DNA from: an uncultured Pseudomonadota bacterium
GTDB lineage: Bacteria; Myxococcota_A; UBA796; SXON01
Assembly (NCBI GenBank): GCA_903921785.1
Contig: CAIXRH010000286.1
Location: 1-33,171, forward strand
Length of the DNA: 33,171 nucleotides
Direction of reading: 5' to 3'
Shown: positions 4,752-30,624 of the stretch, one piece after another
Layout of the letters: every line of letters begins with the position of its first letter
Position numbering within the stretch: position 1 is the stretch's first letter
Translations under genes and position numbers: made by a program
Notes under the pieces: model-generated
Told to the model about the DNA's origin: nothing
Seen by the model: the letters and a program-made list of their open reading frames with translations, nothing else
Database searches by the model: none

Positions 4752-5372
4752 CTACGGCGCGGGCGTCGAGGGGGGCTTCGCCCGCCCGTCACCCGTGAAT
4801 CTTCTCCCCCCGCCCAACATGGCGACCAGCTGCTCGATCCGCCGCGCCCGCGTGGCCGGGAGCTTCGCGCTGTGCACCCGGAAGAGCACGGCGTAGCGGT
4901 TGGCGCCGTCGATCTTCGCGAAGAACTCCGCCGCGGGCGGGTTGGCGTCCAGCGCCGCGCGGAGGTCGTCCGGGACCTCGATGGTCCGGGCTCCCGCGTA
5001 GGCGCTGGCCCAGCGACCGTCCGCCTTGGCGCGCTCCACCTCGGCGAGGCCGGCCGGGAGCATCCGGCCGGCGGCGATGAGCGCTTCGGCCTTGTCCCGG
5101 TTGATGACCGACCAGATGCTCCGTCGCGCCCGCGGGGTGAAGCGCTGGATGAACGTGACGTCGTCAAACGCCTTTTTGTGCCCGTCGATCCACCCGTGGA
5201 TCAGCGCGGCTTCGACCGCCTCGGCGTAGGTGACCGTCTTCGGCGCGCCCGGCGCCTTCTTGCCGAGCCGCAGCCACACCGCGGACGTGGTGGCGCCGTG
5301 CTCGGTCAGCCACGTCAAGAACGCGGCTTGATCCGGGAGGAGGACGATCGGGTCGGAGGCGCTCGGCGGCAC
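4752..5372 (-). CDS. YdeI/OmdA (OmpD-associated) family protein
   Basis: A 206-residue cytoplasmic protein. The N-terminal half contains TSAVWLRLGKK, TYAEAVEAALIHGWIDG and RFTPRARRSIWSVIN, the pattern of the YdeI/OmdA family. The C-terminal half has a helical region, FFAKIDGANRYAVLFRVHSAK, where relatives also have one. Some members are linked to bacteriocin or peptide resistance, but the biochemical role is unknown. The start is GTG, chosen because it lies four bases after the der stop; translational coupling is likely. The C-terminal tail (GRAKPPSTPAP) is encoded across a GC-rich hairpin at 4773-4783. Confidence 0.82.
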   Translation of the reverse strand: MPPSASDPIVLLPDQAAFLTWLTEHGATTSAVWLRLGKKAPGAPKTVTYAEAVEAALIHGWIDGHKKAFDDVTFIQRFTPRARRSIWSVINRDKAEALIAAGRMLPAGLAEVERAKADGRWASAYAGARTIEVPDDLRAALDANPPAAEFFAKIDGANRYAVLFRVHSAKLPATRARRIEQLVAMLGGGRRFTGDGRAKPPSTPAP

Positions 5373-5376
5373 CGGG

Positions 5377-7008: not shown

Positions 7009-7014
7009 GGTCGG

Positions 7015-7020
7015 CGGCTA
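7015..7020 (-). promoter_or_regulatory. Putative -10 element of der
   Basis: The minus strand reads GTTAGCCGCCGACC then GTG. TAGCCG ends 6 bases before the start codon. The same GTTAGCCG string precedes the gene at 12702, which supports a shared element. It lacks the T at the sixth position. Confidence 0.3.
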
Positions 7021-7123
7021 ACGGATCGGGGGCGGAGAGGCGAACATCCCTTTGCCCTGACCTCCCGGCCTGGCGAGACCGTCGCGAGCCAGGACAGGCG
7101 TCGGCGGCCTCCACCCCCCACGT

Positions 7124-7129
7124 TACCTT
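7124..7129 (+). promoter_or_regulatory. Putative -10 element of the FG-GAP lipoprotein gene
   Basis: TACCTT ends exactly 7 bases before the TTG start at 7137, implying a near-leaderless transcript. This 7-base gap recurs at 12870 and 26161. Confidence 0.4.
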
Positions 7130-7136
7130 CCCCGCC

Positions 7137-8645
7137 TTGTCCCTCCCGCTCCCCCTCCTCCTCGCCGCCTGCGCCACCGCGCCCGGTGGCGACGTGTGGG
7201 CGCCCTGGCACGACAACGCCGTCCCCCGCGCCGACTACGCGCCCGACCCCGTCGACACCGCGGACACGGCCCCCGACCCCAGCGACTCCGCCCCGCCCGA
7301 CACCGCCGCGGACACCGCCGACTCCGCCAACGACACCGCCGACTCCGCCCCAGTCGACCCGATCGACGCCGACGGCGACCGTTACGACGCGGACCGCGAC
7401 TGCGACGACGCCGATCCCGCGGTCCACCCCGGCGCCGACGACCCCTGCGGCGGCCCGGACGCCGATTGCGACCCCACCTTCTGCATCCCCGAGGGGCTCC
7501 GCCTCGACTTCGCCTCGTCGGACTGGGACGCCTACTGCGGTTTTCCCGGTAGGTCCCTCGCCACCCTCGCCTGGGACGTCGACGGCGACGGCGCGGACGA
7601 CCTCGTGGTGAGCGACGCGTCCGCGAACCAGTACTTCTACAACTATTTCGTCACGCCGGTCTCCGACGGCGTGTGGACCATCCCCGCCGGCAGTGCGGGC
7701 GACCAGTCCGCCAGCGCGGTGTCCAGCTTCCACCTCGACGAAGGCGGCGAGCTCACCGGCCTCACCCTGGCGCGCATTCCTGACGTGGACGGCGACGGGG
7801 TGGACGAGCTCCTCGCCAGCGATCCTGGCTATTACCCCTACTACTCGGGGAGCCGCCTCGTGGTGGTCAGCGGGGCGACGCTGGCGACCGGCGGCGCCGT
7901 CAGCGACGCCACCTGGACGCTCACGTCCGCGGCCTACTCCGCGATCACCTCCTTCGCGGCCGATGATCTGGACGGCGACGGCGAGCCGGACGTGCTCCTC
8001 GACGACATCTACACCTGGAGCGCCCTCCCCCTCGCGGACATCGCCGCCGGCGTGGACCTCGACACCCTCGACCGGAACATCGGCGCCCCGCTCGGGCTGG
8101 CCGTGGACCTCGACGGAGACGGCGCGGCCGACCTGCCGTTTATCGATGTTGGCGGCGTCGTCACCCTCGGTACGCCCGCCCTCGGCCTCGACGATTGGGC
8201 CACCCTGCCCGACACCTACGAGTACGGCGCCTTGGCCCTCGACCTCGACGGGGACGGCCTCCCGAGCCTCATGGTGTGGGACGGCACGGACATCACCGGT
8301 TGGGACGTGTCGGGGCAGTCGGGCGTGATCGCCGCCCCTGTCGTCACCGTGACCCCAGACGGCGATGAACTCGATGGGTTCTTCGCCGCGGGAGACGGCC
8401 TCGGCGTCCAGGCCGTCCGCGACGACCACGAGGTGGCGTTCTGGTTCTCCCCGGAGGCGCTCACCGGCACGGTCGTTCCCGCCGACGCCGCCGGATGCGT
8501 CTGGGGGGACGTGGATTTCGCGATTGACGGCTGGTTCGGCCACGGTCTCGCGTTCGGTGGCCCCATCGAGCCGGACGGCGAGCCGACCCGATGGCGCCTC
8601 CTCGACCCCGAGCTGGCCCCGGAAGGAGAAGGCTGTACGCCGTGA
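7137..8645 (+). CDS. FG-GAP/VCBS-repeat lipoprotein with MopE-like metal-binding motif
   Basis: 502 residues. The short signal MSLPLPLLLAAC has Cys12 as the lipid site. Residues about 35-75 form a stalk of Asp, Thr, Ala and Pro. Residues 77-116 (DADGDRYDADRDCDDADPAV and on to CGGPDADCDPTFC) match the putative metal-binding motif first noted in copper-binding MopE-type proteins. After that come at least five FG-GAP-like repeats with the calcium-binding core D-x-DGDG: DVDGDGADDL, DVDGDGVDEL, DLDGDGEPDV, DLDGDGAADL and DLDGDGLPSL, probably a beta-propeller on the cell surface. The start is TTG, supported by the promoter spacing and the lipobox. Its 3' end meets the next gene with one base between stops. 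Role unknown; adhesion or binding is possible. Confidence 0.85.
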   Translation: MSLPLPLLLAACATAPGGDVWAPWHDNAVPRADYAPDPVDTADTAPDPSDSAPPDTAADTADSANDTADSAPVDPIDADGDRYDADRDCDDADPAVHPGADDPCGGPDADCDPTFCIPEGLRLDFASSDWDAYCGFPGRSLATLAWDVDGDGADDLVVSDASANQYFYNYFVTPVSDGVWTIPAGSAGDQSASAVSSFHLDEGGELTGLTLARIPDVDGDGVDELLASDPGYYPYYSGSRLVVVSGATLATGGAVSDATWTLTSAAYSAITSFAADDLDGDGEPDVLLDDIYTWSALPLADIAAGVDLDTLDRNIGAPLGLAVDLDGDGAADLPFIDVGGVVTLGTPALGLDDWATLPDTYEYGALALDLDGDGLPSLMVWDGTDITGWDVSGQSGVIAAPVVTVTPDGDELDGFFAAGDGLGVQAVRDDHEVAFWFSPEALTGTVVPADAAGCVWGDVDFAIDGWFGHGLAFGGPIEPDGEPTRWRLLDPELAPEGEGCTP

Positions 8646-9695: not shown

Positions 9696-10451
9696 TCAAC
9701 CGGGCTCGACGAGCCCCACGACGCCCTGGTGATCGGAGCCGGGCACCACGAACGTGGTCACCTGCGCCGCGCTCCACGAAGCGGGCACGAAGACGTGGTC
9801 CAACCACTGATGGACGGGCCCCATCGACCACGTCGACAGGGTGCGCCCGGCCTTCTCGCCGATCTCCGCGAGGCCGACGGCGCGGAGCGGGTCGAGCTGC
9901 TTCTTCTGGGAGCCGAGGTCCCCCGCGAGGATCACGGCGTCGCCGACGCGGGCGGGACCGAGGTCCCGCACGAGGCGGCCCTCCTTCACCAGCCCCGCGA
10001 GGGCGAGCACGGCGCCGTCGGTGCTCGCTTCGCAGACTGGCACGCGCGGGGGAAGGTGGACGCCGATCATCGCGACCTTTTTGGTGCCAATCGTCATCCG
10101 GGAGACCGCCATCGGGCCGACGCAGGGACCGCCCCAGAGGGCGGGCACCACCGCGGTGTCGCCCTCCACCTTGCCCACCAGGCAGATGCCCCAGGGGCTC
10201 GGGTCCCGCCCGTCGACCAGGAGCTGCATCCCGACGGCTTCGAGCGTCTCGGCGGCGACCGCCTTTCGCGTACACTCGGTGAGCACCATCAGGTCGGCGC
10301 CGACCCGCCCCAGGGACTCCGCCACGGCCCGCGGATCGTCGCTCTCCCCCTTGAGGTGCGCGGTGGCGACCACCACCGGCTCACTGTCCGCAGCGAGCGC
10401 GGGACCGGCGACGAGGAGGAAGAACGTGCAGGAAGCGAAGCGAGCGGACAT
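9696..10451 (-). CDS. Exported endonuclease/exonuclease/phosphatase (EEP)-family protein
   Basis: 251 residues. The signal peptide is MSARFASCTFFLLVAGPALA, cleaved near AA. EEP landmarks in order: LTECT (Glu59, metal ligand), VAMIGVHLPP, LAGDLGSQ (in place of the usual GDFN), LDHVFV and GSDHQGVV (Asp240, His241, the catalytic dyad). The family hydrolyses phosphodiesters or phosphomonoesters in nucleic acids, lipids or inositols. The Asn of GDFN is missing here, so activity is uncertain. It follows the rsmB-like gene by 9 bases with AGAGGT 5 bases before the ATG, so it is in that operon. Confidence 0.78.
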   Translation of the reverse strand: MSARFASCTFFLLVAGPALAADSEPVVVATAHLKGESDDPRAVAESLGRVGADLMVLTECTRKAVAAETLEAVGMQLLVDGRDPSPWGICLVGKVEGDTAVVPALWGGPCVGPMAVSRMTIGTKKVAMIGVHLPPRVPVCEASTDGAVLALAGLVKEGRLVRDLGPARVGDAVILAGDLGSQKKQLDPLRAVGLAEIGEKAGRTLSTWSMGPVHQWLDHVFVPASWSAAQVTTFVVPGSDHQGVVGLVEPG

Positions 10452-10460
10452 CGGGACCTC

Positions 10461-11678
10461 TCACGCGGGCGCGCGCAGCCGGCAACCCCAGAAGACGTCC
10501 GCCCCCTCCGCGTTGCCCGCGTTCGAGTACACCGCCTCGATGGGCCACCCGAGCGTCGCCGCCACCTGCGGGCCTTCTTCCGGCTCCGGAGAGCAGACCG
10601 CGTAGACCAGGGCGCCGCCCGGCTCCACACACTTCGCGGCGTTGGCGAGGATCGCCTTCTGCCGGATCGCGGCCGCCAGGACGTCGGCCTCGGTGCGGCG
10701 CCAGCGCAGCTCGGGGTGCCGACGGATGAGCCCGAGGGCGGTGCAGGGGGCGTCCACCAGCACGGCGGGCCAACGTTCGGCGAGCGGGCCGGCGACCCAG
10801 TCGTGGGCCTTCCGCCGCACCGTGAGCCCCACCCGCTGGGCGTTCTCCTCCACACGCTTGAGCCGCTCGGGCTTGAGGTCGGTGGCCGACACGGCCATCC
10901 CTCGGGCCGCGAGCCGCAGGCTCTTCCCGCCGGGCGCCGCGCACGTGTCCAGCACCCTGTCCACCTGGGGCACGAGGTCCGCCACCGCGACGGCGGCGGG
11001 GTCCATGACCCACCAACGCCCCTCGCGGAAGCCTGGGAGTTCCTCGATCCGACCGGCGCGGGGCGGGAGCCGGAAGACCCCCTCCCCCACCGGCACCAGC
11101 GGCAGCTCCGCTCGCTGGAACGCCGCAGCGACGCCCGCGGCGTCCTCCCGGACGACGATGTGCACCGGCGCGGGGTCGGCGCAGGCGCGTAGCCACGCGT
11201 CGGCCTTCTCCACCCCGAGCGCGGCGCGCCAGCGGGTGATCATCCACTGCGGAAAGCCCAGGGTGATGTCCCCTTCCCGAGGCACTTCACCGCGACGCAA
11301 GACCGCGTTGACGAAGCCGCCCGCGTGCCCGACGCCGAGCGCCCGGGTGGCCTCCACGCCCTGATCCACGGCGGCGTGCGGTGGCGTGCGGGTGAAGGTG
11401 CGTTCGTAGAGGCCCATCCGGAGGATGGTCGCGACCTGAGGATCCAAGGTCCAGATCGCGCGACGGGCGGCCTGCACGATCGCCTCATCCAGCGCCGCAC
11501 GGTTGCGCAGCACGCCGAACGCGAGGTTCCAGGCAAGCGATCGATCGGCGGGATCGCGCGGGACCAGCTCCGCGAGCGCCTCCTCGACGTTCTTCCCTTC
11601 TTCCACCGCGAGCAGCGCACGGGCCGCCGCGAGCCGTCCGGGGTTCAACCTCGGCGGACCGCCCCGGGGCTCAGCCAC
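10461..11678 (-). CDS. rsmB: RsmB-type 16S rRNA (cytosine-C5)-methyltransferase
   Basis: 405 residues. An N-terminal helical NusB-like domain (about 12-140, with RSLAWNLAFGVLRNR) is followed by a NOL1/NOP2/Sun methyltransferase domain. Seen: the SAM-binding motif DTCAAPGGKS, the acidic loop SATDLKPERL, the motif-IV Cys in DAPCTALGLIRRHPE and the motif-VI Cys in VYAVCSPEPEEG. The two-Cys arrangement is that of m5C RNA methyltransferases; RsmB modifies C967 of 16S rRNA in E. coli. The start is GTG, overlapping the end of the upstream DsbA-like gene by 8 bases. The target base is inferred from the NusB fusion only. Confidence 0.85.
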   Translation of the reverse strand: MAEPRGGPPRLNPGRLAAARALLAVEEGKNVEEALAELVPRDPADRSLAWNLAFGVLRNRAALDEAIVQAARRAIWTLDPQVATILRMGLYERTFTRTPPHAAVDQGVEATRALGVGHAGGFVNAVLRRGEVPREGDITLGFPQWMITRWRAALGVEKADAWLRACADPAPVHIVVREDAAGVAAAFQRAELPLVPVGEGVFRLPPRAGRIEELPGFREGRWWVMDPAAVAVADLVPQVDRVLDTCAAPGGKSLRLAARGMAVSATDLKPERLKRVEENAQRVGLTVRRKAHDWVAGPLAERWPAVLVDAPCTALGLIRRHPELRWRRTEADVLAAAIRQKAILANAAKCVEPGGALVYAVCSPEPEEGPQVAATLGWPIEAVYSNAGNAEGADVFWGCRLRAPA

Positions 11679-12702
11679 GATCGGCCAGCTCAGCCTCGAT
11701 GATGCGCTCGAACGCCTCGGGCGGCTGGGCGCCCTTGATCTTGTAGCCGTTCACGAAGAAGGTAGGGGTGGAGGTGATCTTCCACTTCTCGGCGCGGGCC
11801 TGGTCGGCGGCAACGGCCGCGTCCACGTCGGTAGACTTGCGGTCGCTCTCCCACTTCGGCACGTTCAAGCCGACTTCCTTGGCGATCGCGACCAGCCGCT
11901 CTTCGTCGAGCCCCTGGGAGGAGAAGAGCGCGTCGTGGTATTCCCAGAACTTGCCCTGCTTGTCGGCCGCCATCGCGGCGAGCGCGGCCGGCCGGGCCAT
12001 CTTGTGCATCGCGAGCGGCTGGTTCATGAAGACGATGCGCACCTTGTCGCCGTACTTCGCTTCGACCGCCTTCACGTTCGGCTGCGCCTTCTTGCAGTAT
12101 GGACACTGGAAGTCGCTGTACTCGATGATGGTGATCGGCGCGTCGGCCTTGCCGAGCGAGGGGGCCGTGGAGGGGTCGAGCGGGAGCCAGGGCTGCCCAA
12201 AGTCCACCGCGCTGCGGATCTCGTCGGGCGACTTCTCCTGCTTGGCGAGCCGCACCACCCGCCGCGACAGCGTGGGCAGGTTGGCGCAGAGCGACTTGTC
12301 GAGGAGCTTCGGCGCCCGCTCGATACACTTGCCGAGGCTGTACTGCTGGTCCACGCAGGGGGCACAGGCGCCGACCACGTTGTTGAACGCGTACACCGCC
12401 TTGGTCTGGGCCTCGCCGCGGAGCGTGCCGATGTCGGGAACCAGGGCCGCGAGCGTGTCCGCCGTGTAGTCGGTGGGCTCGAAGGCGGGCTTGTCCTTCT
12501 TGCCGCCGCCCTCGCCGTCGCCCTTGGGCGCGGCCGCGGCGGCCGTCTTCGCGTCCGCGATCTCCTTGTCCTTCGCGGCGAGCTCCACCTTCGCTTCGAG
12601 CGAAGCGCGGTCATACCCGACCTTGTAGCCGCCATAGGAGCCCACGCCGCCGAGGAGGAGCGCGAAGGCGAGCATACCGAAGACCGTGCTGTTCTGGCTC
12701 AT
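11671..12702 (-). CDS. Membrane-anchored DsbA-family thiol oxidoreductase
   Basis: 343 residues. One N-terminal membrane segment (about 8-27) is followed by a charged Ala-rich linker, then a small Cys domain (about 80-170) with CAPC at 113-116 plus two more Cys, then a DsbA-like thioredoxin fold with active site CPYC at 200-203 and the cis-Pro loop TSTPTFFVNG. The fold belongs to the DsbA/DSBA_oxidored_4 group that makes or reshuffles disulfides outside the inner membrane; the many Cys-containing exported proteins nearby would be plausible substrates. An open frame runs upstream to 12807, but the ATG at 12702 precedes the membrane anchor and lies 7-8 bases after a TTAGCCG promoter-like string. 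First gene of a leftward operon. Confidence 0.87.
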   Translation of the reverse strand: MSQNSTVFGMLAFALLLGGVGSYGGYKVGYDRASLEAKVELAAKDKEIADAKTAAAAAPKGDGEGGGKKDKPAFEPTDYTADTLAALVPDIGTLRGEAQTKAVYAFNNVVGACAPCVDQQYSLGKCIERAPKLLDKSLCANLPTLSRRVVRLAKQEKSPDEIRSAVDFGQPWLPLDPSTAPSLGKADAPITIIEYSDFQCPYCKKAQPNVKAVEAKYGDKVRIVFMNQPLAMHKMARPAALAAMAADKQGKFWEYHDALFSSQGLDEERLVAIAKEVGLNVPKWESDRKSTDVDAAVAADQARAEKWKITSTPTFFVNGYKIKGAQPPEAFERIIEAELADRG

Positions 12703-12869: not shown

Positions 12870-14171
12870 ATGTCGCTGTCCGTCGTCCTCACGCTCGTCG
12901 CCTGCTCCTCGACCCAGAGCATCACCATCGCCGGGGGTACCCAGGAAGAGGACAGCGCCGTCGCCGAGGACACCGGCTCCGACAGCCTCCCGGGCGACAC
13001 CTCCGAGGACACCGCGGACACCGGAAAGCCCGAAGAAGAGGACCCCGCGGTGAGCGCCGCCTGGCAGGCCGCGTTCTTCACGGAGGACCAGATCCACGAG
13101 ATCGAGATCACCCTCTCCGACGACGCCTACCATGACATCCGTCGCGATGGGCACACCTACGTCCCGGCGGACGTGACGGTCGACGGCGAGACGACCGCCA
13201 ACGTGGGCATGCGCCTGCGGGGCAAGATCGGTTCGTACCGGGAGATCTCGGGCAAGCCCAAGTTCAAGCTCGACCTCAGCCAGTACGTGAAGGGCCAACG
13301 ATTCCATGGGCTTCACTCCATGGCCCTCAACAACGAGGTCGTGGACTGCTCCTACCTCCGTGAGCCGCTCGCCTACCGGGTTTTCCGGGATGCCGGCATT
13401 GTGGCGTCTCGCACCTCGTTCGCCCACGTCACCGTCAACGGCGACGACTACGGGCTCTACGTGATCATCGAGGTCCCGGACAAGTCGTTGCTCAAGGATC
13501 GCCTCCCCGAGGACGCCGACGGCAACCTCTACGACGGCAAATACATCTACAACTGGTCCAACGGCACGTACACCCTCCTGGACTTCGAGAGCAACGTCGA
13601 CAACCTCTACGGCCTGGAGGAGGGCACCGACGTGGGCAACGCCGACATCGCGGCGATCTCCGCCGCGATGGACGCAGCGCCCTACGGTCCCGGGTACACC
13701 GAGGCGATGGACCCGCTCCTGGACTGGAACCAGTGGCACACCTCCTGGGCCGTGGAGCAGTGGGTCGGCCACCTCGACGGTTACCAGATGAACAAGAACA
13801 ACTACCGGGTCTACTTCCGCCCGTCCGACGGGAAGATGATCTACCTCCCCACCGACTTCGACTACGGCTTCCTCGGCGACGGCGGCTGGGGCGTCGGCTG
13901 GACCGGCCCCATCGGCACCCTCTCCAGCCGCTGCTTCCTCGATCAGTCCTGCCTCGCCGCCCACAAGGCTTCGGTGGACACCCTCCTCGACGGCATCGAC
14001 GCGACCGCCCTCGACCAGATGCTCACCGACATGGGCACGCTCACCCACGACCTCGCCGCCTCCGACCCCCGCCGCGAGTGTTCCACGCGGGACGTCTGGG
14101 CCACCCAGGACTACCTCCACAGCTGGGTTCAAGGCCGCGAAGCAACGGTCCGGGCGACCTGGGGGCTCTGA
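12870..14171 (+). CDS. CotH-kinase family lipoprotein
   Basis: 433 residues. The short signal MSLSVVLTLVAC (Cys12) is followed by an acidic Asp/Thr/Glu-rich stalk to about residue 60. The CotH domain follows: VGMRLRGKIGSYR with the conserved RLRG, KPKFKLDLSQYV, YLREPLAYRVFRDAG, DYGLYVIIEVPD, NNYRVYFRP and PTDFDYGF, the last being the equivalent of the metal-binding DxD of CotH kinases. CotH proteins phosphorylate spore-coat proteins in Bacillus; many bacteria encode exported relatives of unknown target. An in-frame start at 12834 would add 12 residues (MRPRGLSGTLRA); the ATG at 12870 is preferred because a TACCCT lies 7 bases upstream and the signal begins there. Confidence 0.87.
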   Translation: MSLSVVLTLVACSSTQSITIAGGTQEEDSAVAEDTGSDSLPGDTSEDTADTGKPEEEDPAVSAAWQAAFFTEDQIHEIEITLSDDAYHDIRRDGHTYVPADVTVDGETTANVGMRLRGKIGSYREISGKPKFKLDLSQYVKGQRFHGLHSMALNNEVVDCSYLREPLAYRVFRDAGIVASRTSFAHVTVNGDDYGLYVIIEVPDKSLLKDRLPEDADGNLYDGKYIYNWSNGTYTLLDFESNVDNLYGLEEGTDVGNADIAAISAAMDAAPYGPGYTEAMDPLLDWNQWHTSWAVEQWVGHLDGYQMNKNNYRVYFRPSDGKMIYLPTDFDYGFLGDGGWGVGWTGPIGTLSSRCFLDQSCLAAHKASVDTLLDGIDATALDQMLTDMGTLTHDLAASDPRRECSTRDVWATQDYLHSWVQGREATVRATWGL

Positions 14172-14283: not shown

Positions 14284-15195
14284 GTGCTGGTCTTGCCGCT
14301 GGTCATCGCGTGCGTCGTCCCCGACAGCTGGACCCCCGCCCGCGAAGCATGCGGGCTGGACGCCCCCTTGGTCCTCGACGACCTGGAGCCCACCGCGGAC
14401 GGTCGCCACGGCCTCGTGTTGCCGACCGGGTGCCCCGAGGTGCTCCTCGCGGACCTGGGCGGCGACGCCGACGTCGTCACGGCCGACCTGACCCTGACCG
14501 GCACGCTGGATGAACACGTCGAAGCCGTTCGGACCGGCGACGCGCCCCTGGACGGCCTGGTCGTCGCCCTCTGGGGCATGTACTGGCTCGCCGGCGTGGA
14601 CCTCGGAACGGTTGGCGCGCTGGCTCCGGGCGCCTACACCGACCCCGTCTGGGTCGAGGACTTCACCGCCCGCGCCGAGGAGCAGGGCGGCGGCGCGGAC
14701 AGCCCCCTCGCGGAGGTGCTCTACAACGACGTGGCGGAGCGGATCACCGAGCTCGGTTGGCTACCGAATTCGACCCCCGTCGACGCCGCAATGGGCGTAC
14801 CGGGAGGCACCGGTCAGCTCCTCCTCCCGCGCCCAACGCAGATCGTCACCGACGCGGTGTGGCCAACGGACAGCTACGGGCCGAATGTCACGGCCTGGGG
14901 GCTCGTGCACGAGTCCGTGCACTCACGGGTCGACAGCCACCCGCATGTCGAGTGCGGGCCGCCTGCATCGAGCTCCGGGAGGGTCTGCGACGCCGACCTG
15001 ACTGGAGCCTACGGCGCGGAGTTCGCCGCGGCCTGGGCGGAGATCACCGTCGCCGCCGACGGCGGAGCCTGCCTTGCGGACAGCATGGCTCGTGACGTGG
15101 CCGCCGTCGACCTGCAGACGCTGCAGTTGTGGTGGCAGCAGCAGGTGATGCTCCCGCTGCCGGACCAAACCATCCCCGCGTGCGAGTCGCCGTGA
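14284..15195 (+). CDS. Lipoprotein with HExxH metallopeptidase motif
   Basis: 303 residues, no family recognised. The signal MLVLPLVIAC ends at Cys10. The C-terminal half has HESVH at 209-213 in the context TAWGLVHESVHSRVD, a hydrophobic helix ending in HExxH as in zincin metallopeptidases. Glu246 or Glu253 in YGAEFAAAWAEI could be the third zinc ligand (gluzincin style). Cys224 and Cys235 flank the loop after HExxH and may form a disulfide. The start is GTG preceded by GAGGTAGG. It follows the CotH gene by 112 bases, with its own promoter-like site. The peptidase role is inferred from the motif alone. Confidence 0.72.
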   Translation: MLVLPLVIACVVPDSWTPAREACGLDAPLVLDDLEPTADGRHGLVLPTGCPEVLLADLGGDADVVTADLTLTGTLDEHVEAVRTGDAPLDGLVVALWGMYWLAGVDLGTVGALAPGAYTDPVWVEDFTARAEEQGGGADSPLAEVLYNDVAERITELGWLPNSTPVDAAMGVPGGTGQLLLPRPTQIVTDAVWPTDSYGPNVTAWGLVHESVHSRVDSHPHVECGPPASSSGRVCDADLTGAYGAEFAAAWAEITVAADGGACLADSMARDVAAVDLQTLQLWWQQQVMLPLPDQTIPACESP

Positions 15196-15273: not shown

Positions 15274-17214
15274 TCAGTGCTGGATCACCCGCACCGGACA
15301 GCTCGACTGGATGCCGTTGTTGTAGACCACGAGGTGCGCGATGGTCGCGTCGCTGCGAGCGTTCCCGAGCTTCACCCACTTCTCCCCGGTGCGGGTGAGG
15401 TCGAAGCCGCCGTAGACGTAATCCTGACCGCCGGCCCGGAGCACGAGGCTCGCCGGCGTGGCGTCCGTCGGGTGTTTCACGGGCGCGTCCTTCACGAAGA
15501 GCACGCCGTTGGCCGGATCGAAGAAGCAGTAGGGGCAGTAGGGCGGCGGCGGCTGCGGGAGCACCCAGGGGTGGGCCGTCCCCGAGAGCGGGTCGAGCTC
15601 AGGGCAGTCGATCGCGCCGGCCGGGGTGGGCGCCCCGTTGCACCCGGAGGCCGGAAGGGCGCACCAGGAGCCCTGGAGAGGGGCGCTCACGCCGCTCGGG
15701 CACACGTTCACGGCGCTGGGGTAGGCGGTGCAGGTGAGCTCGGGAATCCCGCTCGGCGGCGTGGGAATGAAGGCCGCGGGCGGCGCTCCGCCGGGCTCCG
15801 CGCACACGTCGGTGCCGCGGGTGCTGCAATCGCCCACCACGTTCCCCGGCCGCACCACCACCGTGGCGCCCGGCGCCAGCACGTTTCCCAGCGGCGGCGA
15901 CGACGAGCTGGGGCAGCCGGCCGCGAGATCGTTCATCACCTGATCCGCCGGGTAGGGCGAGGTCTTTGCCGCAGGGTCGGGGGCGCCGCACGAGCCGGGG
16001 CCCGCCTCCCACCGGGCCGCAGCGGCGGCGGCGACCACGAGCGTGGCCACGGAGGAGCCCGCCAGGGAGGTGCTGAGCTCTCCGGACCCGGGCGCGGGCG
16101 TGCTGACCGGCGCCAGGGCGCTCGCGGTGGCAGCGCCGTAGCCGCGGAGCCGGCTCCCGGTCGGCAGCGCGTTCCGGAGCGGGGCGCCGGTTCGGTCCAC
16201 CCCCCCGACCGCGTAGATCAGGGGCGTCGTCGCGTTCCATTGGCCGGGCGCGCCCCCGAGGTACTCACTGCAGACCGGCGCCTTCGGCCACGTCGCGGGA
16301 TCGCTCCACGCCGCCGGATACAGCACCGCCCCGGCCGGACCGCTCCGGTCGTTGTTCCCTTCGGCGGCCACCAAAAGCGCGCCGGAGCAGCGAGCGTAGA
16401 CCAGCGCGTCGAACAGCGCGAGAGTCTCGGCGCCCCAGACGGTCGGCGCGGCGGGGTCGGGATGCGTCCACCGGGCGTCGAACCCGGCGGAGATCGACAA
16501 GACCAGCCCCCGGCCGGGCGCGCCGCTCCACGCCTGCGTCTCCGCCACGACGGCCTGGCTCAGGTCGCTGACCGCGCCGAACGTCCCGCCGGTGGTCCCC
16601 GGGATCGGGGTCGCCCCCCCGGGGGACAGGTTCACGTCGCTGTCGGGCAGGGCGAGGCGCGTGCGGATCGCCGCGGCGCACCCCGGGCCGCCGGTGGCGG
16701 TAGACGGTCCCCCCGCCCCGCAGAGCAGCGCGCCCGCGAGGTTCGCCAGGGTTGCGCCGTGCTGGGAGAACGTATCATGGTCGAAGCTGCCGAACGTGCG
16801 CCCCTGGAACGCGCTGCCGGTGGTCGGCGAGGTGTCGAGGATCGCCAACCGAACCGAGGCTCCGTACGCCGCGGGACCATGGAGCCGCCCCATCGCCGCC
16901 ATCGCCTCGTCGCGATCATGCGCCGCGAAGTCCTGCTCGAGCCCCGCCGGCGCGAGGGCGAGGTGGCTCGCCTCGGTCGGGGCGACGCCCTCGGTGGCCC
17001 CCGATGTCCGGCACCAGCGACCCAAGGGGTTCTCCGCCCCGTCGACACCGGCGAACAACGGCTCCGCACAGCCGCTCGGATCGTCGGTGATCCGCACCCC
17101 GGCCTCCACCTCGGCGTGCCCGGAGCGGATGAGCACGATGGCGGGGTCCCGCGGGGTGGGAGCCACGCTTGCGGCGGTCGTGTCGCAGGCGGTGAAAAGC
17201 AGGGCGAACCACAT
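15274..17214 (-). CDS. Subtilisin-like (S8) serine protease lipoprotein
   Basis: 646 residues. Signal MWFALLFTAC, lipid site Cys10. The protease domain spans about 115-405: Asp127 in VRLAILDTSP, His152 in FSQHGATLANLAG, the oxyanion Asn in AAEGNNDRSG (287/288), and Ser388 in SLAGSSVATLV, which replaces the usual GTSMA. The triad is therefore complete, although the Ser motif is variant. After about 410 is a Cys- and Pro-rich region, then a beta-rich C-terminal domain ending in VRVIQH. It starts 15 bases after the CHAT gene stop, so it is the last gene of the sigma/anti-sigma/CHAT operon. It should be anchored in the envelope facing outward. Its substrate may be the CHAT protein, the anti-sigma factor or outside proteins; none is shown. 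Confidence 0.8.
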   Translation of the reverse strand: MWFALLFTACDTTAASVAPTPRDPAIVLIRSGHAEVEAGVRITDDPSGCAEPLFAGVDGAENPLGRWCRTSGATEGVAPTEASHLALAPAGLEQDFAAHDRDEAMAAMGRLHGPAAYGASVRLAILDTSPTTGSAFQGRTFGSFDHDTFSQHGATLANLAGALLCGAGGPSTATGGPGCAAAIRTRLALPDSDVNLSPGGATPIPGTTGGTFGAVSDLSQAVVAETQAWSGAPGRGLVLSISAGFDARWTHPDPAAPTVWGAETLALFDALVYARCSGALLVAAEGNNDRSGPAGAVLYPAAWSDPATWPKAPVCSEYLGGAPGQWNATTPLIYAVGGVDRTGAPLRNALPTGSRLRGYGAATASALAPVSTPAPGSGELSTSLAGSSVATLVVAAAAAARWEAGPGSCGAPDPAAKTSPYPADQVMNDLAAGCPSSSSPPLGNVLAPGATVVVRPGNVVGDCSTRGTDVCAEPGGAPPAAFIPTPPSGIPELTCTAYPSAVNVCPSGVSAPLQGSWCALPASGCNGAPTPAGAIDCPELDPLSGTAHPWVLPQPPPPYCPYCFFDPANGVLFVKDAPVKHPTDATPASLVLRAGGQDYVYGGFDLTRTGEKWVKLGNARSDATIAHLVVYNNGIQSSCPVRVIQH

Positions 17215-17229
17215 GGAGCACCACGGAGA

Positions 17230-19953
17230 TCAAGGGACGAAGAGCCGGAAGAGCGTCGCCTCGCGGTCGGACAGCTCACGCAGAGAACGAACGAGCGCCT
17301 CCGCCGTCTCACGCACATCCCCAGAAAACCCGCCTCCGTCGGGAGTGTAGAAAGAACGCGTGACCCGCAGGGCCGTGGCGGTGGGCACGTTCGCCGTCGT
17401 TGCGACGACCTGCTCGGCGCCCGAGATCACGAACGCCTGCGCGAGCCCCAGGGCCAGGCCCTCGCCGCGGGACGGCGTTCCCGAGCCGCAAGCAGACAGG
17501 TAGACCCACCGAGGCGGCGCACCGGGCAACAGCAGGGTGTCCGCAGCCGACCAGGAGAGGCGCCCGCCGGCCCCCAAAACCAGCCCGCTCGTCTCCGCGT
17601 GGCCAACGAAGTGAAACCCGTCGCCGGTGGCCAGGGCGGCGCGCGTCGCGCTGATCGGGTCGCTGCCCGGAACGACGGGCGACGCCGACAGACCCCGGGT
17701 CCCGGCCCAACGGCTCACGGCTTCCGCCTCGTCGGCGGCGGTCGGCACAGACCCGGTGGGGTCGACGAGCACCGTGAAGGAGCGAGCGCTGGGCAGGGCG
17801 CCGGGCGCCGCCCGGGGCAGGTCCAGGCTGTAGACGGTCGCCTTCTGGGCGACGAGCGGCCGCGCTCGCCAGGTTGGAGGCGTCTCCTCGCCGCCGGGGG
17901 GCAGCGCGCCGGTCAAGAGGGTCACCTGCTCGGCCGCAGCGATCTCGGCGTCGAAGGGCGCGGTCCACCCACCGTCCTCCGCGCTGGCGACCGGCACCAT
18001 ACGGGACGCGTGGTCCGTCACCGCGAAGGCAACCCATCCGGAGTCGAGCTCGAACCAACCCAGGATCAGCTCCCCGGGGGTCGGGGTACGCAGCGGATAC
18101 CCCTCACCTCGCTGCCCTCCAAGGGCGGCATCCAAGAGCCGCAGCCCCTCCTGGAGGAGCTTCTGCGAGTCGTCCCGCGCCTTGGTGACCTCCACGACCG
18201 AGGCGTCAGCGCTCCCGGCGAGGAGCTCGGCCTGCGCCGCACGAAGCCCGTACCAGCGGCGCTGGAGCTGGTCCCAGCGTGCAGCCCGGCCCGTGTCGCC
18301 GAGGCGCCGGGCGGTCCAGGCGCTGATGGCGAGGGTCCGGCCGACGTCTCGCACCACGCGGATCGCTTCGTCCTCGTCGCCGCGGGCGATCAGCAGGGAG
18401 ACCTCCGCACGCGCGGCGCTGCGCCACTCTGCGGCGACCGCGTCCCGCCCAAGCGACGCCGGCACCCACAAGGTGAGCTCCGCATACCGCTCCCGCGCCT
18501 CCGCGAAGCGCGCCGCTGCCGCGTCGTCGTCGCCGCGGGCAAGCGCCACCCGCGCGCGCCCGAGCAGCGCCCGCCACTCGAGGTCCAGGCGCGCCGTGTG
18601 GCGCGGGCTCTCCGCCAACAAGGTGACGAACGCGCGGTCGGCGGCGTCGAGGTGGCCCGCCGAGAGCTCCACCCGCCCCTGCGTCAACCAGTACCACGCC
18701 CGGTCTTCGGGGCGTGCACCTCCGTCCAGCGCCGCTGCCTTCACCGCCTCCAGGGTCGCCGCAGCGATCGGAGCGTCCCCCGCCTGGTGCAGCGCCCGGG
18801 CCAGGTTCAAGCAAGGGTTCAGGAGCGCGGCTTCCGAACATCGCCGCGCCCCGATTCGCCGCCGGAGCAGCGCGACGGGCTCAAAGTCCGGCCCGCGGAG
18901 GGCTCCATCCGTGGGCGCCCCCACCTCCCGGGCGTCGAGCACCACCCAGCTGTAGGCCTCGATCGCCTCCGCGAGCGCGTCGGGGTCGGGCGCCTCGCTG
19001 GCGAGCAGGTGGCGTAGACGCGCGCCGTGGTAGCGGATCGCCTCCCCTCGTTGACCCACCACGGCGAAGAGGTCGGCGCGGAGCTGGGCTCCATCGTCAG
19101 CACGCGCTGCATCCGGGAACGCATCGGCGACCCGATCGGCGTGTTCAAGCACAGCGAGCGCCTGATCAATCCGACCGGCGCGGCGATCCAGGACCGCTTC
19201 GGTGAACGCCCCGTAGTAGGGGGGCGCGAGGTCACCTGCGCTCAGCTCGGTCCGCGCCAGAGAAGGTTCGAGCTCGTCCAGCCGCGCCGCGAGCGGGTCT
19301 GGCAGGGCGACCAGCTCATCACTCGCGAGCACGTCCACAAACAGACCAAGGTTCGCCGCGAGCATCTCTTCTCGCACGTCGCCGCGGGCGCGGGCCGCGT
19401 CCCAGGCCTTCAACGTCGCGGCCACCGGGATGGAGTAGTCCGGGCTCCCTGGGGTCCCCCGGGCCTGGCGGAGTCGCAGCCGCGCGAGGAGCAGGTCGCG
19501 GAGCGCCAGCGCGGAGTCGTGGATCGACGCGCGCTCGAGCTCCGTCGCGGCCCGCGTGGGGTCCTCCGCTGCAGCCCATCGCCGCCACTGCCTGGCGGAG
19601 ACGCCGCCGATCGAGCCCGCGAGCGGAAGCGCCCATTGCGCCCCGTTCGTTCCCCGGATCACCACGGCGGTTGCCCCGTCACAGGCGGGAAGGCGGACCT
19701 CGGCCCCCACTCCCCCGGGGGCCGTCGTTGACACCACCCGCGCGGGACACGTACCTGGATCGGTCCCTCGAACGTCCACCGTGAGCGCTCCCGCGTCCGC
19801 AGGCACGGACAGGAACAGCCCCCCCGGCTCCACGAGGCAGGCGCCTTCCTGGACGGCGAGGCACCCGAAAAAGTCGGGGCGAGGCGCCGGCGACTCCGAC
19901 CACACGGTGAGCGCCGCCATCGTCGCCCACCATGTCGCCCGTGAGGCTCGCAT
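17230..19953 (-). CDS. Exported CHAT-domain (caspase-like) cysteine protease
   Basis: 907 residues. The N-terminus MRASRATWWATMAALTVW looks like a signal peptide, followed by a Cys-containing beta-rich region (about 20-110), then a long helical repeat region rich in Ala, Leu and Glu with TPR-like periodicity (about 115-640). The CHAT domain occupies the last 200 residues: strand and loop near SARSFTVLVDPTG, catalytic His785 in FHFVGHAETSG and catalytic Cys822 in WVYLSACGSGT. This His/Cys dyad is the separase/caspase-type active site. The ATG overlaps the anti-sigma stop by one base (TGATG), which fixes the start; an upstream extension to 20145 is rejected. The export signal implies it acts outside the cytoplasm, unlike most CHAT proteins described. 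Confidence 0.87.
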   Translation of the reverse strand: MRASRATWWATMAALTVWSESPAPRPDFFGCLAVQEGACLVEPGGLFLSVPADAGALTVDVRGTDPGTCPARVVSTTAPGGVGAEVRLPACDGATAVVIRGTNGAQWALPLAGSIGGVSARQWRRWAAAEDPTRAATELERASIHDSALALRDLLLARLRLRQARGTPGSPDYSIPVAATLKAWDAARARGDVREEMLAANLGLFVDVLASDELVALPDPLAARLDELEPSLARTELSAGDLAPPYYGAFTEAVLDRRAGRIDQALAVLEHADRVADAFPDAARADDGAQLRADLFAVVGQRGEAIRYHGARLRHLLASEAPDPDALAEAIEAYSWVVLDAREVGAPTDGALRGPDFEPVALLRRRIGARRCSEAALLNPCLNLARALHQAGDAPIAAATLEAVKAAALDGGARPEDRAWYWLTQGRVELSAGHLDAADRAFVTLLAESPRHTARLDLEWRALLGRARVALARGDDDAAAARFAEARERYAELTLWVPASLGRDAVAAEWRSAARAEVSLLIARGDEDEAIRVVRDVGRTLAISAWTARRLGDTGRAARWDQLQRRWYGLRAAQAELLAGSADASVVEVTKARDDSQKLLQEGLRLLDAALGGQRGEGYPLRTPTPGELILGWFELDSGWVAFAVTDHASRMVPVASAEDGGWTAPFDAEIAAAEQVTLLTGALPPGGEETPPTWRARPLVAQKATVYSLDLPRAAPGALPSARSFTVLVDPTGSVPTAADEAEAVSRWAGTRGLSASPVVPGSDPISATRAALATGDGFHFVGHAETSGLVLGAGGRLSWSAADTLLLPGAPPRWVYLSACGSGTPSRGEGLALGLAQAFVISGAEQVVATTANVPTATALRVTRSFYTPDGGGFSGDVRETAEALVRSLRELSDREATLFRLFVP

Positions 19954-20615
19954 CACTCCGACTGTAGCACCTCCACCGTACAGCGTTGCCACGCGCGCGA
20001 CGCGCCGCCCGCCCGCAGCTCGCGCACGGTGGCCTCGTCCGGCGCCGCGTCTCCTCGACCCACATAGACCTCCGCCCGTCGAGTCGGCCCCAGCGCGGCC
20101 ACCCCCGTCGTCCACCGGAGCGCACCCGACGCCCCGACCGGCCACAAGGTCACACTCCGCACGCCGTCAACGAAGACCCACCCTCGAACGTCACGACCGG
20201 CGGACTCCCCCGGGCGCAACGTGATGTCGACCCGATCGGCCGCTTCGGCCTTGAGCCGCAACGCACACTCGTCCGAGGACGCGCCGGTGCCAAGCTCCAA
20301 ACGCTCGGTTGGGAGCACCTCCGCTTCGGCCGAGAACCGAGGGAGCGGCGCTGGGAGGAGCACCCAGCCGAGCACGGTGGCCGCCAACGCCAGGACCGCG
20401 GCGGCGGCGATCCACCGCCGCCGAGCCGGGCGCTTTCGCTTTCCCGCAAGCGCGATCGCCTGTCGGAGCACCCGCTCTTCGGCGGCCACCCGCGCGAGGC
20501 GCCCCTCGCAGATCGAGCACGCATCCGCGTGCTCTTCAACGGCAGCACACTCCTCGGCACTGAGGAGACCCGAGGCGTACTCGAGCAGTCGCGCATCTTC
20601 AAGATGAACGTTCAT
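19953..20615 (-). CDS. Zinc-finger transmembrane anti-sigma factor
   Basis: 220 residues. The N-terminal cytoplasmic part has His29-x3-Cys33-x2-Cys36 (EEHADACSICEGRL), the ZAS motif that binds zinc and holds a partner sigma factor. Basic residues KRKRPARRR (about 59-67) precede one membrane helix (about 68-87, WIAAAAVLALAATVLGWVLLP), putting the C-terminal 130 residues outside. That outer domain is beta-rich with two Cys and no named family; it would be the sensory part or the cleavage site. The start ATG overlaps the previous stop as ATGA and has GGAGGAGAA directly upstream, the best ribosome site in the operon. Its stop overlaps the CHAT start. Confidence 0.87.
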   Translation of the reverse strand: MNVHLEDARLLEYASGLLSAEECAAVEEHADACSICEGRLARVAAEERVLRQAIALAGKRKRPARRRWIAAAAVLALAATVLGWVLLPAPLPRFSAEAEVLPTERLELGTGASSDECALRLKAEAADRVDITLRPGESAGRDVRGWVFVDGVRSVTLWPVGASGALRWTTGVAALGPTRRAEVYVGRGDAAPDEATVRELRAGGASRAWQRCTVEVLQSE

Positions 20616-20821
20616 TTCTCCTCCAAAGCCGCGCGCAGCGAGCGACGCACCGACAAGACGATGTCCTGGACCCTCCCGGCGGGGATCCCGTGGGCCACGG
20701 CCACCGCCGTGGGGTCGCCCCCGTTCACGGCGACGGCCTGGTAGACCGCCACGTGCAAGGGGGGCAACGTGTCCAAAATCGCGCCGACTCGCGCGGTGGT
20801 GAGATCGAGGTCGTCTCTCAT
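20612..20821 (-). CDS. Small stand-alone sigma region-4-like helix-turn-helix protein
   Basis: 69 residues. Residues about 18-67 (DTLPPLHVAVYQAVAVNGGD, then GIPAGRVQDIVLSVRRSLRAAL) follow the pattern of sigma-70 region 4: LPP at the start, a helix, then a turn and a recognition helix ending in R-RR-L-AAL. There is no region 2. It sits between the sigma gene and the anti-sigma gene, overlapping both by ATGA. It may bind DNA or core polymerase, assist the sigma factor, or compete with it for the anti-sigma. It could also be a remnant of a duplicated sigma gene. Confidence 0.7.
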   Translation of the reverse strand: MRDDLDLTTARVGAILDTLPPLHVAVYQAVAVNGGDPTAVAVAHGIPAGRVQDIVLSVRRSLRAALEEK

Positions 20822-21420
20822 GGTTCATACCCCTCCCGGCGAAGCCGGGCTTTCAGGTCGCTACGAAATCGGAACACGACGTTTCGAACCACCGCGTCCG
20901 ACACCCCGAACGCCGAGGCCAGCTCCGGCTGGCTGCCCGGGGTCTCGATGAGCCCCCGGATCAGGCGCTGGTTCCGGTCGGACTCTTGCGCGAGCGCCTC
21001 CTCGTAGAGGCGCGAAACCTCGGCGAGGTGGAGCCGGTCGCTCGGCGACGCCCGATGCGCGTCTGCGCCGACCAAGGTGTCTGGATCTTCGTCCCCGAGC
21101 GGCCGCTCGCTCGGACGACGGGCGGCGTCACACGCGACGTTCAGGGCGATGGTCCGGGCGTATTGGGGCATCTTGAGCACCTCCATGCCCCCGCGACACT
21201 GCGTCACGACCCTCGCGAACGCCTCCTGCACGGCCTCCTTGGCATTCGGGTACCGCCTCGCCAGCACCGCCACCAAAACCTCGTCATAATAAACCTCGGG
21301 CAAGGCAGCGATCGCCGCTTCTTCGCCGGCTGCGGCACGACGGCAGAGCTCCGCCCTCGCCAGCGGCTCGGCCGCGCGGGCACGGGCCACCAGCGCCGCG
21401 ATCGAGCCAGGACGGATCAT
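20818..21420 (-). CDS. ECF-like sigma-70 family RNA polymerase sigma factor
   Basis: 200 residues. Region 2 lies about 40-100: VYYDEVLVAVLARRYPNAKE, AVQEAFARVV (equivalent to the DAVQEAFLRV motif) and PQYARTIALNVACDAARR, the core-binding and -10 reading part. Region 4 lies about 145-196, ending in the HTH PELASAFGVSDAVVRNVVFRFRSDLKARLR. There is no region 1.1 or 3, as in ECF sigma factors. The start ATG has GGAGAGGG about 7 bases upstream. Its stop overlaps the next ATG (ATGA). It probably transcribes its own operon when the adjacent anti-sigma releases it; this is inference from gene order. Confidence 0.83.
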   Translation of the reverse strand: MIRPGSIAALVARARAAEPLARAELCRRAAAGEEAAIAALPEVYYDEVLVAVLARRYPNAKEAVQEAFARVVTQCRGGMEVLKMPQYARTIALNVACDAARRPSERPLGDEDPDTLVGADAHRASPSDRLHLAEVSRLYEEALAQESDRNQRLIRGLIETPGSQPELASAFGVSDAVVRNVVFRFRSDLKARLRREGYEP

Positions 21421-21682
21421 CGCCGCGCCCTCTCCACGGCCAGTTCCCGCCTTCCCGGAGGCTGGGGACCCGACGGAGCATCTCTCGATCCCGCGGGTCC
21501 ACCGCCAAGACCGCCCCGGGGAGCGGGAACCGGTAGGTCAGACCTGAGGTCGGGCCAGCGACGGTGAGGGCGGTCGCCCCCACGTAGGTGAAGCGCACGC
21601 GCGGCGGCGTACCTCCCACTGCACCGGGGTGCTGGAGGCTCGCCGACGCCGAAGTTTGGCTTTTGTTTCCACAACAGGCCAT
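21284..21682 (-). CDS. Small CC-motif protein leading the sigma operon, with a likely frame problem at its 3' end
   Basis: The frame begins at MACCGNKSQTS and contains a compact beta-rich core, RVRFTYVGATALTVAGP then TYRFPLPGAVLAVDPRDREM, resembling small proteins seen in phages and other bacteria that start with a CC motif. Third positions are G/C-rich up to about residue 67 (RRVPSLRE). After this the frame runs 137 bases into the sigma gene, giving an Arg/Gly-rich tail. A shift by one base near 21455 would instead end the protein in ELAVERARR and a TGA overlapping the sigma ATG (ATGA), like the other junctions of this operon. So the true end is probably 21417, by frameshift or by an indel in the sequence. 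An in-frame TTG at 21706 is an alternative start. Function unknown. Confidence 0.5.
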   Translation of the reverse strand: MACCGNKSQTSASASLQHPGAVGGTPPRVRFTYVGATALTVAGPTSGLTYRFPLPGAVLAVDPRDREMLRRVPSLREGGNWPWRGRGDDPSWLDRGAGGPCPRGRAAGEGGALPSCRSRRRSGDRCLARGLL

Positions 21683-27183: not shown

Positions 27184-27714
27184 CTACTTGAGCGTGCGGA
27201 GCGCCGCCGTCGCCTGCCACTTGACGTACTTGTCGGTGGTGGTGTCGCGAAGGGTGCCGAGGCAATCGAGCACCACCTGCTTGTCGGGGGCGGGGAGCCC
27301 TTCGGAGCCGATGTTGCCGAGCGCCCAGACCCCGGCGAGCTGGTCCCGGTCCTCGGGACCGAAGCTGTGCACGTACTCCACCAGCGGAGCCACGCTCTCC
27401 TTCACCTTGAGCCGGCCCAGCGCGTCCGCCGCGGCACGGCGAACCTTGGGCTGGTCGTCGTGCTGGAGCCGGTCGACGAGGGCGGGTCCCGCGGTGGTCG
27501 CTTCGATCTCCGCGAGGGACTCGATCGCGTTGAGTCGGACGGGCGCCGAACTGTCGGCGATGACCCCGATGAGCGCCTTCTCCACCACCGGGTCAGCATA
27601 GTTCTGGGCGATCTTGGCGCCGTCTTCGCGCATGACCGGGTTCTTGGAGTTGATCGCCGTGGCGATCTCCTCCGCCGACGGCGAGCAGCCGATCAGGAAA
27701 AGCAGGGTGATCAT
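27184..27714 (-). CDS. HEAT-repeat lipoprotein coupled to the Wzz/BY-kinase gene
   Basis: 176 residues. Signal MITLLFLIGC, lipid Cys10. The rest is four to five HEAT/PBS-lyase-type helical pairs: NPVMREDGAKIAQNYADPVV, SAPVRLNAIESLAEIEAT, QPKVRRAAADALGRLKVKES and KYVKWQATAALRTLK. HEAT repeats make protein-binding solenoids. The ATG overlaps the stop of the Wzz/BY-kinase gene (ATGA), so the two are translated together. That suggests a periplasmic scaffold or regulator for the polysaccharide export machine; this link is inferred from gene order only. Confidence 0.82.
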   Translation of the reverse strand: MITLLFLIGCSPSAEEIATAINSKNPVMREDGAKIAQNYADPVVEKALIGVIADSSAPVRLNAIESLAEIEATTAGPALVDRLQHDDQPKVRRAAADALGRLKVKESVAPLVEYVHSFGPEDRDQLAGVWALGNIGSEGLPAPDKQVVLDCLGTLRDTTTDKYVKWQATAALRTLK

Positions 27715-29913: not shown

Positions 29914-30624
29914 ATGCTCGCTCTGCTCCTCGCCCTGGCGTGCGTTCCCTCGCAAGCCCCCCCCAACGTGGCGGACGCGGGGGAGGACATCCGCCTGCCT
30001 CCGCAGACCGCGTTCACGTTCGGCGCCGGAGATGCGCTGAAAATCTGGGTCTGGCGTCACGACGACCTCACGGTCGAGGTCACGGTCGCCCCCGACGGCG
30101 CGATCACCTACCCCCTGGTCGGGCGGGTGGTCGTCTCCGGGCTCACCTACGAACAGCTGGTCGACACCCTCCAGAAGAAGGTGTCCGAGTACTACGTGGA
30201 CGCGACGGTGCAGGTCAACGTGGTCACGGTGACCAACCAGAAGGTCCTGATCCTCGGGGAGGTGCAGCAGCCGCAGGTGATGCAGGTCAAAAATGATCTC
30301 AGCATCCTCGAGGCGCTGGTGATCTCCGGCGGCATCAACCCGGACGCGCGCACCAGCAACGTCCTGCTCATCCGCGGCGGGCTCGACAACCCGAAGCTCT
30401 ACACCGTGAATGTGGACGCGCTCTACGGCCGCGGGGACATGAGCCAGATGGTCTACCTCCAGCGCGGGGACATCGTGGTGGTGCCCACCAAGACCATCAC
30501 CAACGTCGACCGGTTCTTCCGCCACATCCAGGCGATCCTCGCGCCAGCCGTCGGCGGTTCCGCCGTGTACCGGAACTTCCTCGGCAGCGGCGCCCAGGGT
30601 ACCTCCTCCTCCCTCTCCGACTGA
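29914..30624 (+). CDS. Polysaccharide export lipoprotein (Wza/OPX family)
   Basis: 236 residues, shorter than E. coli Wza (about 380). Signal MLALLLALAC, lipid Cys10. Residues about 35-115 form the Poly_export domain (FGAGDALKIWVWRHDDLTVE, VAPDGAITYPLVGRVVVSGL, YYVDATVQVNVV). A SLBB-like domain follows (VLILGEVQQPQVMQV, LSILEALVISGGINPDART, LQRGDIVVVP). It lacks the C-terminal amphipathic helix that makes the outer-membrane barrel in Wza, so a separate outer-membrane partner may exist. The ATG at 29914 is set by the lipobox and the promoter spacing. It starts the operon with the glycosylphosphotransferase, 6 bases downstream. Confidence 0.9.
   Translation: MLALLLALACVPSQAPPNVADAGEDIRLPPQTAFTFGAGDALKIWVWRHDDLTVEVTVAPDGAITYPLVGRVVVSGLTYEQLVDTLQKKVSEYYVDATVQVNVVTVTNQKVLILGEVQQPQVMQVKNDLSILEALVISGGINPDARTSNVLLIRGGLDNPKLYTVNVDALYGRGDMSQMVYLQRGDIVVVPTKTITNVDRFFRHIQAILAPAVGGSAVYRNFLGSGAQGTSSSLSD

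Follow-up and report, generated by a model that had tools for sequence, protein, structure and literature searches.

A predicted envelope-sensing ECF sigma/anti-sigma module of Myxococcota with an exported TPR-CHAT protein and a CxxC-bearing subtilase lipoprotein

The window, by which we mean the whole 33,171-nucleotide stretch of DNA that was analysed (contig CAIXRH010000286.1), contains five coupled genes on the minus strand, encoding an ECF sigma factor, a sigma4-like protein, an anti-sigma factor, a TPR-CHAT protein and a subtilase lipoprotein:

20818-21420, minus strand: ECF sigma factor (200 aa; TIGR02937, E=6e-9)
20612-20821, minus strand: orphan sigma4-like protein (69 aa; weak match to PRK09645 region 4)
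19953-20615, minus strand: membrane anti-sigma factor (ZAS residues H29/C33/C36, TM segment at ~69-87, periplasmic domain of ~130 aa)
17230-19953, minus strand: TPR-CHAT protein (907 aa), predicted to be exported (PF12770, E=6.8e-14; dyad H785/C822)
15274-17214, minus strand: divergent S8 subtilase lipoprotein (646 aa; PF00082 matches of its relatives; triad D127/H152/S388)
15274-15550, minus strand: C-terminal 'PQP-x5-CPYC' domain of the subtilase (C560/C563; CxxC in 50/50 homologues, stand-alone copies in relatives)

A coordinate check reproduced exactly the coupling reported in a preliminary description of this DNA, with overlaps of 4, 4 and 1 bases and a 15-base gap before the subtilase gene. 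Each of the five frames was backed by codon usage, as judged by a gene caller trained on the genes of the window; the caller placed the CHAT start slightly later than the start of the reading frame. The end of the operon had been put at 21682, which is not the sigma start and proved to be the ATG of another ORF (21682-21284). This ORF begins with MACCGNK, overlaps the sigma gene in a different frame and looks protein-like for ~76 residues before entering it; a search for its phage relatives found none. The genes at 2078-3055, 7137-8645, 14284-15195, 15274-17214, 27184-27714 and 29914-30624 start with unusually short lipoprotein signals, consisting of a very short hydrophobic stretch with little or no positive charge that ends in the lipobox Cys (e.g. 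MILALALAC, MITLLFLIGC). The gene at 12870-14171 encodes a lipoprotein that presumably resembles a CotH-type kinase.

The sigma factor matched TIGR02937 over residues 44-192 with 35.7 bits, below the cut-off of 42.9, and all of the 23 aligned module sigmas matched the same model. It carries sigma2 and sigma4 regions only, which places it among the ECF factors. The match of the small downstream protein to sigma region 4 of PRK09645 was weak (E=0.004); its best match within the module was the sigma4 end of the ECF factor at L023 3552-4211 (32% over 68 aa). No separate sigma4-like gene lay between sigma and anti-sigma at any other locus read, and on this ground we dropped the protein as a core component; judging from these gene orders, it is probably specific to the window and outside the module core. 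Since sigma and anti-sigma are joined directly at the other module loci, the 69-aa gene may be a detached second sigma4.

A ZAS motif and a single TM segment had been ascribed to the anti-sigma factor, and both were borne out: H29-x3-C33-x2-C36 lies in the cytoplasmic domain as an HxxxCxxC motif, ahead of one TM segment at ~69-87, which identifies a ZAS-type protein. Its zf-HC2 score (21.1 bits) fell just under the cut-off of 22.2, and besides zf-HC2 no Pfam family was found in the search made for the periplasmic domain. The anti-sigma domain aligned with 28 module anti-sigmas. The ZAS motif was missing from most relatives in the module. At the module loci, a 4-base overlap was found in 22 of 34 adjacent ECF/anti-sigma pairs and in 13 of 23 adjacent anti-sigma/CHAT pairs.

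The CHAT protein scored 52.4 bits with PF12770, for which the cut-off is 24. Together with the His785/Cys822 dyad that had been read from the sequence and that we found kept, at each position, in 57/57 homologues, this assigns it to the CHAT family. It consists of an N-terminal beta domain with a C31/C39 pair (positions kept in 44/57 and 47/57 CHATs), TPR helices at ~120-610 and a CHAT domain at 625-907; a structural model (mean pLDDT 60) also contained the beta domain, TPR helices and CHAT domain. The signal peptide claimed for this protein is weak in the copy of the window itself; homologues and fusions give the stronger evidence of export. A simple test of N-terminal hydrophobicity was passed by 35 of 57 CHAT and 42 of 50 S8 proteins, some failures being truncated or mis-started gene predictions, and a lipobox was matched in 23 and 29 of them, respectively. 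At three loci from large-genome relatives (L075, L076 and L079), anti-sigma, TM segment and TPR-CHAT are fused in one protein, in the order cytoplasmic domain, TM, anti-sigma periplasmic domain, TPR, CHAT. This domain order would place CHAT beyond the membrane, and the fusions thus argue against a cytoplasmic CHAT protein, in line with the predicted export. In the same three related genomes, the gene for the anti-sigma-CHAT fusion is separated from the subtilase gene by one for a secreted protein of 975 aa (L075 5954-8881, L076 5480-8407, L079 10709-13636), which ends in a hydrophobic/RRRR tail.

The preliminary description had overlooked a resemblance to DdvA, the transmembrane anti-sigma factor of the ECF sigma DdvS in Myxococcus xanthus, which has a CHAT domain (PDB 8rot, 8rw5). 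With the CHAT model as query, Foldseek returned DdvA as the top match (E=1e-11), followed by Csx29 and separase. VIA-align gave Z 15 over 499 residues between model residues 240-906 and DdvA 402-991 (TPR + CHAT), a score that many TPR proteins reach. With the family profiles, DdvA ranked first among CHAT-containing PDB chains: the CHAT-domain profile placed 8rot at rank 1 (E=1.4e-13), and the full-length profile matched DdvA at E=8e-12, behind designed TPR proteins.

The TPR-CHAT fold is also shared with Csx29, which cleaves Csx30; CASP-sigma is the sigma factor that Csx30 inhibits (PMC10028731). This likeness suits a conflict or defence module in which invasion sets off CHAT and S8 as a caspase-like pair that kills and the sigma factor serves as an amplifier, as in Craspase. 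We consider such a role improbable. A PADLOC search for defence families gave zero matches for the module proteins, a plasmid search with the CHAT of a relative gave no match, and the CHAT protein is predicted to be exported. The window also holds no Cas7-11 partner gene, since the largest gene called in it is 896 aa.

The triad Asp127/His152/Ser388 proposed for the subtilase was confirmed, being kept in 49/49, 49/49 and 50/50 homologues (the Asp127 and His152 counts cover the 49 sequences with a letter at that position); a lipobox, FTAC, lies at residues 7-10. The subtilase of the window alone gave no PF00082 match; it was assigned to the S8 family on the strength of its relatives, 37 of 39 of which did match, and of the family profile, which matched mycosin (E=2.8e-18) and subtilisin. 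Its structural model had a mean pLDDT of 39, and we therefore used only secondary structure from it; Foldseek matches were weak, with subtilisins on top at E 0.03. Both catalytic sites, of CHAT and of the subtilase, are essentially invariant, so that nothing in the alignments suggests pseudoenzymes.

A C-terminal domain of the subtilase had gone unmentioned in the preliminary description. A CxxC motif occurs near the C-terminus in 50/50 subtilases, in 46 of them as P-x-P-x(2-9)-CxxC with 40-140 residues after it; the low-confidence model of the window protein contains seven strands in this domain, and no Pfam family covers it. At CHAT loci without S8, small lipoproteins, predicted to be exported, often adjoin CHAT and carry a CxxC equally far from the C-terminus. 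Genes of this kind made up 12 of 37 small genes beside CHAT at these loci vs 6 of 264 elsewhere (p=2e-8). The small proteins at L091, L104, L105 and L106 matched the profile of the subtilase domain, with E 1e-4 to 5e-9 before and 1e-9 to 8e-20 after iteration; L091 has a subtilase besides its stand-alone CxxC protein. For the CxxC proteins of L102, L108, L109, L110, L112, L115 and L117, the assignment was made from the motif and the position of the gene alone. In the CHAT tree, the presence of S8 changes at least five times across well-supported branches, one fully supported clade mixes CxxC-only and S8 loci, and 8 of the 55 CHAT loci have neither S8 nor a CxxC protein. The CxxC domain can thus stand beside CHAT without the S8 domain, which makes it a candidate direct partner of CHAT.

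With the family profiles we searched 379 genomes from the phylum of the window (Myxococcota). S8 was found in 29 genomes (28 at E<1e-20, G206 at 5e-15) and CHAT, at E<=1e-30, in 40. CHAT was present in 28/29 S8 genomes vs 40/379 overall (Fisher p ~8e-32); in the sole S8-only genome, G049, a CHAT frame broken by frameshifts lies between anti-sigma and S8. A set of 74 relatives yielded CHAT matches, weak to clear, in 12 genomes, S8 in four, and one contig with both, adjacent; a scan of genome contigs with the S8 alignment gave only four loci. An intact CHAT gene lay near S8 in 35 of 45 S8 loci read (the coordinates of L088 being taken from the phylum-wide profile search), and several of the remaining loci are at contig edges. 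CHAT was found within 6 kb at 34 of 50 S8 places, vs ~0.003 expected per place; 25 of these 34 were co-directional, 8 convergent and 1 divergent. The module is patchy, occurring in 1 of 11 genomes of the genus of the window.

Four well-flanked S8 loci lack CHAT (L062, L064, L067 and L089). The CHAT-less subtilases at L062 10403-14077 and at L067 adjoin a ~1200-aa protein and an ECF sigma factor; this protein is possibly a different partner. At L023, the CHAT gene (4970-7818) and a second S8 copy (10013-11761) look broken by frameshifts, through assembly error or as pseudogenes.

The commonest order was sigma, anti-sigma, CHAT, S8; convergent and split arrangements also occurred, which argue against the simple inertia of an old operon. 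Distances in the CHAT and S8 trees were correlated (r=0.70; 0/2000 permutations as high); the common history of the species would account for part of this. That these are neighbouring genes with separate functions, a reading to which the low identity among proteins of relatives (~25-30%) might lend itself, is very hard to credit: the linkage is kept at that identity and through rearrangements, and there are fusions and domain swaps besides. As far as linkage in the genome goes, this reading is refuted for CHAT with S8 and for CHAT with sigma/anti-sigma. The co-occurrence with sigma/anti-sigma on which the preliminary description had made its proposal depend is present phylum-wide. Co-occurrence and fusions also support its suggestion that the sigma factor, the TM anti-sigma and the two putatively exported proteases form a closed unit. 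The set recurs across the phylum and inhibitor and CHAT are fused in some relatives; it therefore has the look of a genuine switch that senses the envelope, and not of genes clustered by chance.

The sigma/anti-sigma pair might instead only control the transcription of CHAT and S8, which would be effectors directed at foreign proteins or those of the envelope, with general RIP proteases releasing the anti-sigma. Both active sites are kept, which fits effectors, and CHAT and S8 sometimes occupy transcription units of their own, mutually convergent. We regard this as rather unlikely, given the fusion of CHAT to the anti-sigma at L075/L076/L079 and the resemblance of CHAT to the anti-sigma DdvA. 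A search of the DNA ahead of the transcription units of sigma, CHAT and S8 also showed no enrichment of a shared ECF promoter motif over other transcription units; autoregulation is thus not supported, and we claim no feedback.

Gene order, co-occurrence, fusions, catalytic-site conservation and the domain swap were observed directly. We propose, with a probability of about 0.6, that the genes belong to an ECF sigma/anti-sigma module that is conserved in Myxococcota and senses the envelope, with a split DdvA-like sensor, a TPR-CHAT arm and a CxxC lipoprotein/subtilase as partner or substrate. The anti-sigma, spanning the membrane once, would hold the sigma factor in the cytoplasm by its N-terminal domain. 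TPR-CHAT would be its extracytoplasmic arm, a separate exported protein here, fused in some relatives and in DdvA of M. xanthus; on the evidence of the fusions and gene coupling, the two probably work as one transmembrane sensor. The CxxC beta-domain lipoprotein, usually fused to an S8 domain with intact active site, would be the partner of CHAT, and TPR-CHAT would most likely sense the state of the periplasm, perhaps through the CxxC domain, which it might bind or cut. CHAT and/or S8 would then destabilise the anti-sigma by proteolysis and free the sigma factor, as RseA/DegS and Csx29/Csx30/CASP-sigma suggest by analogy. Binding, substrate, direction of proteolysis, signal and sigma targets are the parts of this model that we infer.

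A narrower form, advanced tentatively as one possible version, is that a periplasmic cascade of CHAT and subtilase gates the anti-sigma via the CxxC lipoprotein, as CHAT substrate or redox-sensitive ligand, and is an extracytoplasmic counterpart of Csx29/Csx30/CASP-sigma. If the proposal is right, exported CHAT proteins gain a definite function, as the arm with which an anti-sigma senses or cuts, and S8 and the CxxC lipoprotein become testable partners for DdvA-like anti-sigma factors. Craspase would then no longer be the only case in which a caspase-like protease is tied to sigma control; this second one would be extracytoplasmic.

Release by proteolysis of TM anti-sigmas with a periplasmic domain, of the RseA/DegS and RsiW types, is the general model. 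The unit in the window shares such an anti-sigma and differs in its proteases, CHAT and S8, whose action on it is our proposal. With DdvA it shares a TM anti-sigma linked to a TPR-CHAT; the two CHAT domains are related, with the His/Cys positions kept in the profile alignment. In the window, however, anti-sigma and CHAT are separate genes, the one-protein DdvA arrangement being found at L075, L076 and L079, and there is in addition an S8 lipoprotein that carries a CxxC domain (DdvA was compared as a protein only). As of 2015, the inactivating signal of DdvA was described as unknown (PMC4374960). According to a review, sigma factors of the ECF54 group (actinobacterial example) have conserved CHAT, subtilase and carboxypeptidase genes close by but no anti-sigma, and proteolytic control has been proposed for them (PMC8999054). 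The conserved CHAT and subtilase context is the same; a TM anti-sigma in the operon of the window and at most module loci sets it apart from ECF54, which was compared by description only. Craspase likewise combines a TPR-CHAT protease with a sigma-factor inhibitor, cleavage in our unit being by analogy only, but Csx29 acts with Cas7-11 and a guide RNA, whereas the CHAT protein of the window is predicted to be exported and has no such partner. Among the papers within reach (most subscription papers lay beyond it), we found none on the four-part set with anti-sigma, on the S8/CxxC fusion or on the CxxC protein alone. CHAT and subtilase near an ECF factor were thus already known from ECF54, and a TM anti-sigma with CHAT from DdvA; new here is the four-part set, including the anti-sigma, the S8/CxxC fusion and the stand-alone CxxC protein.
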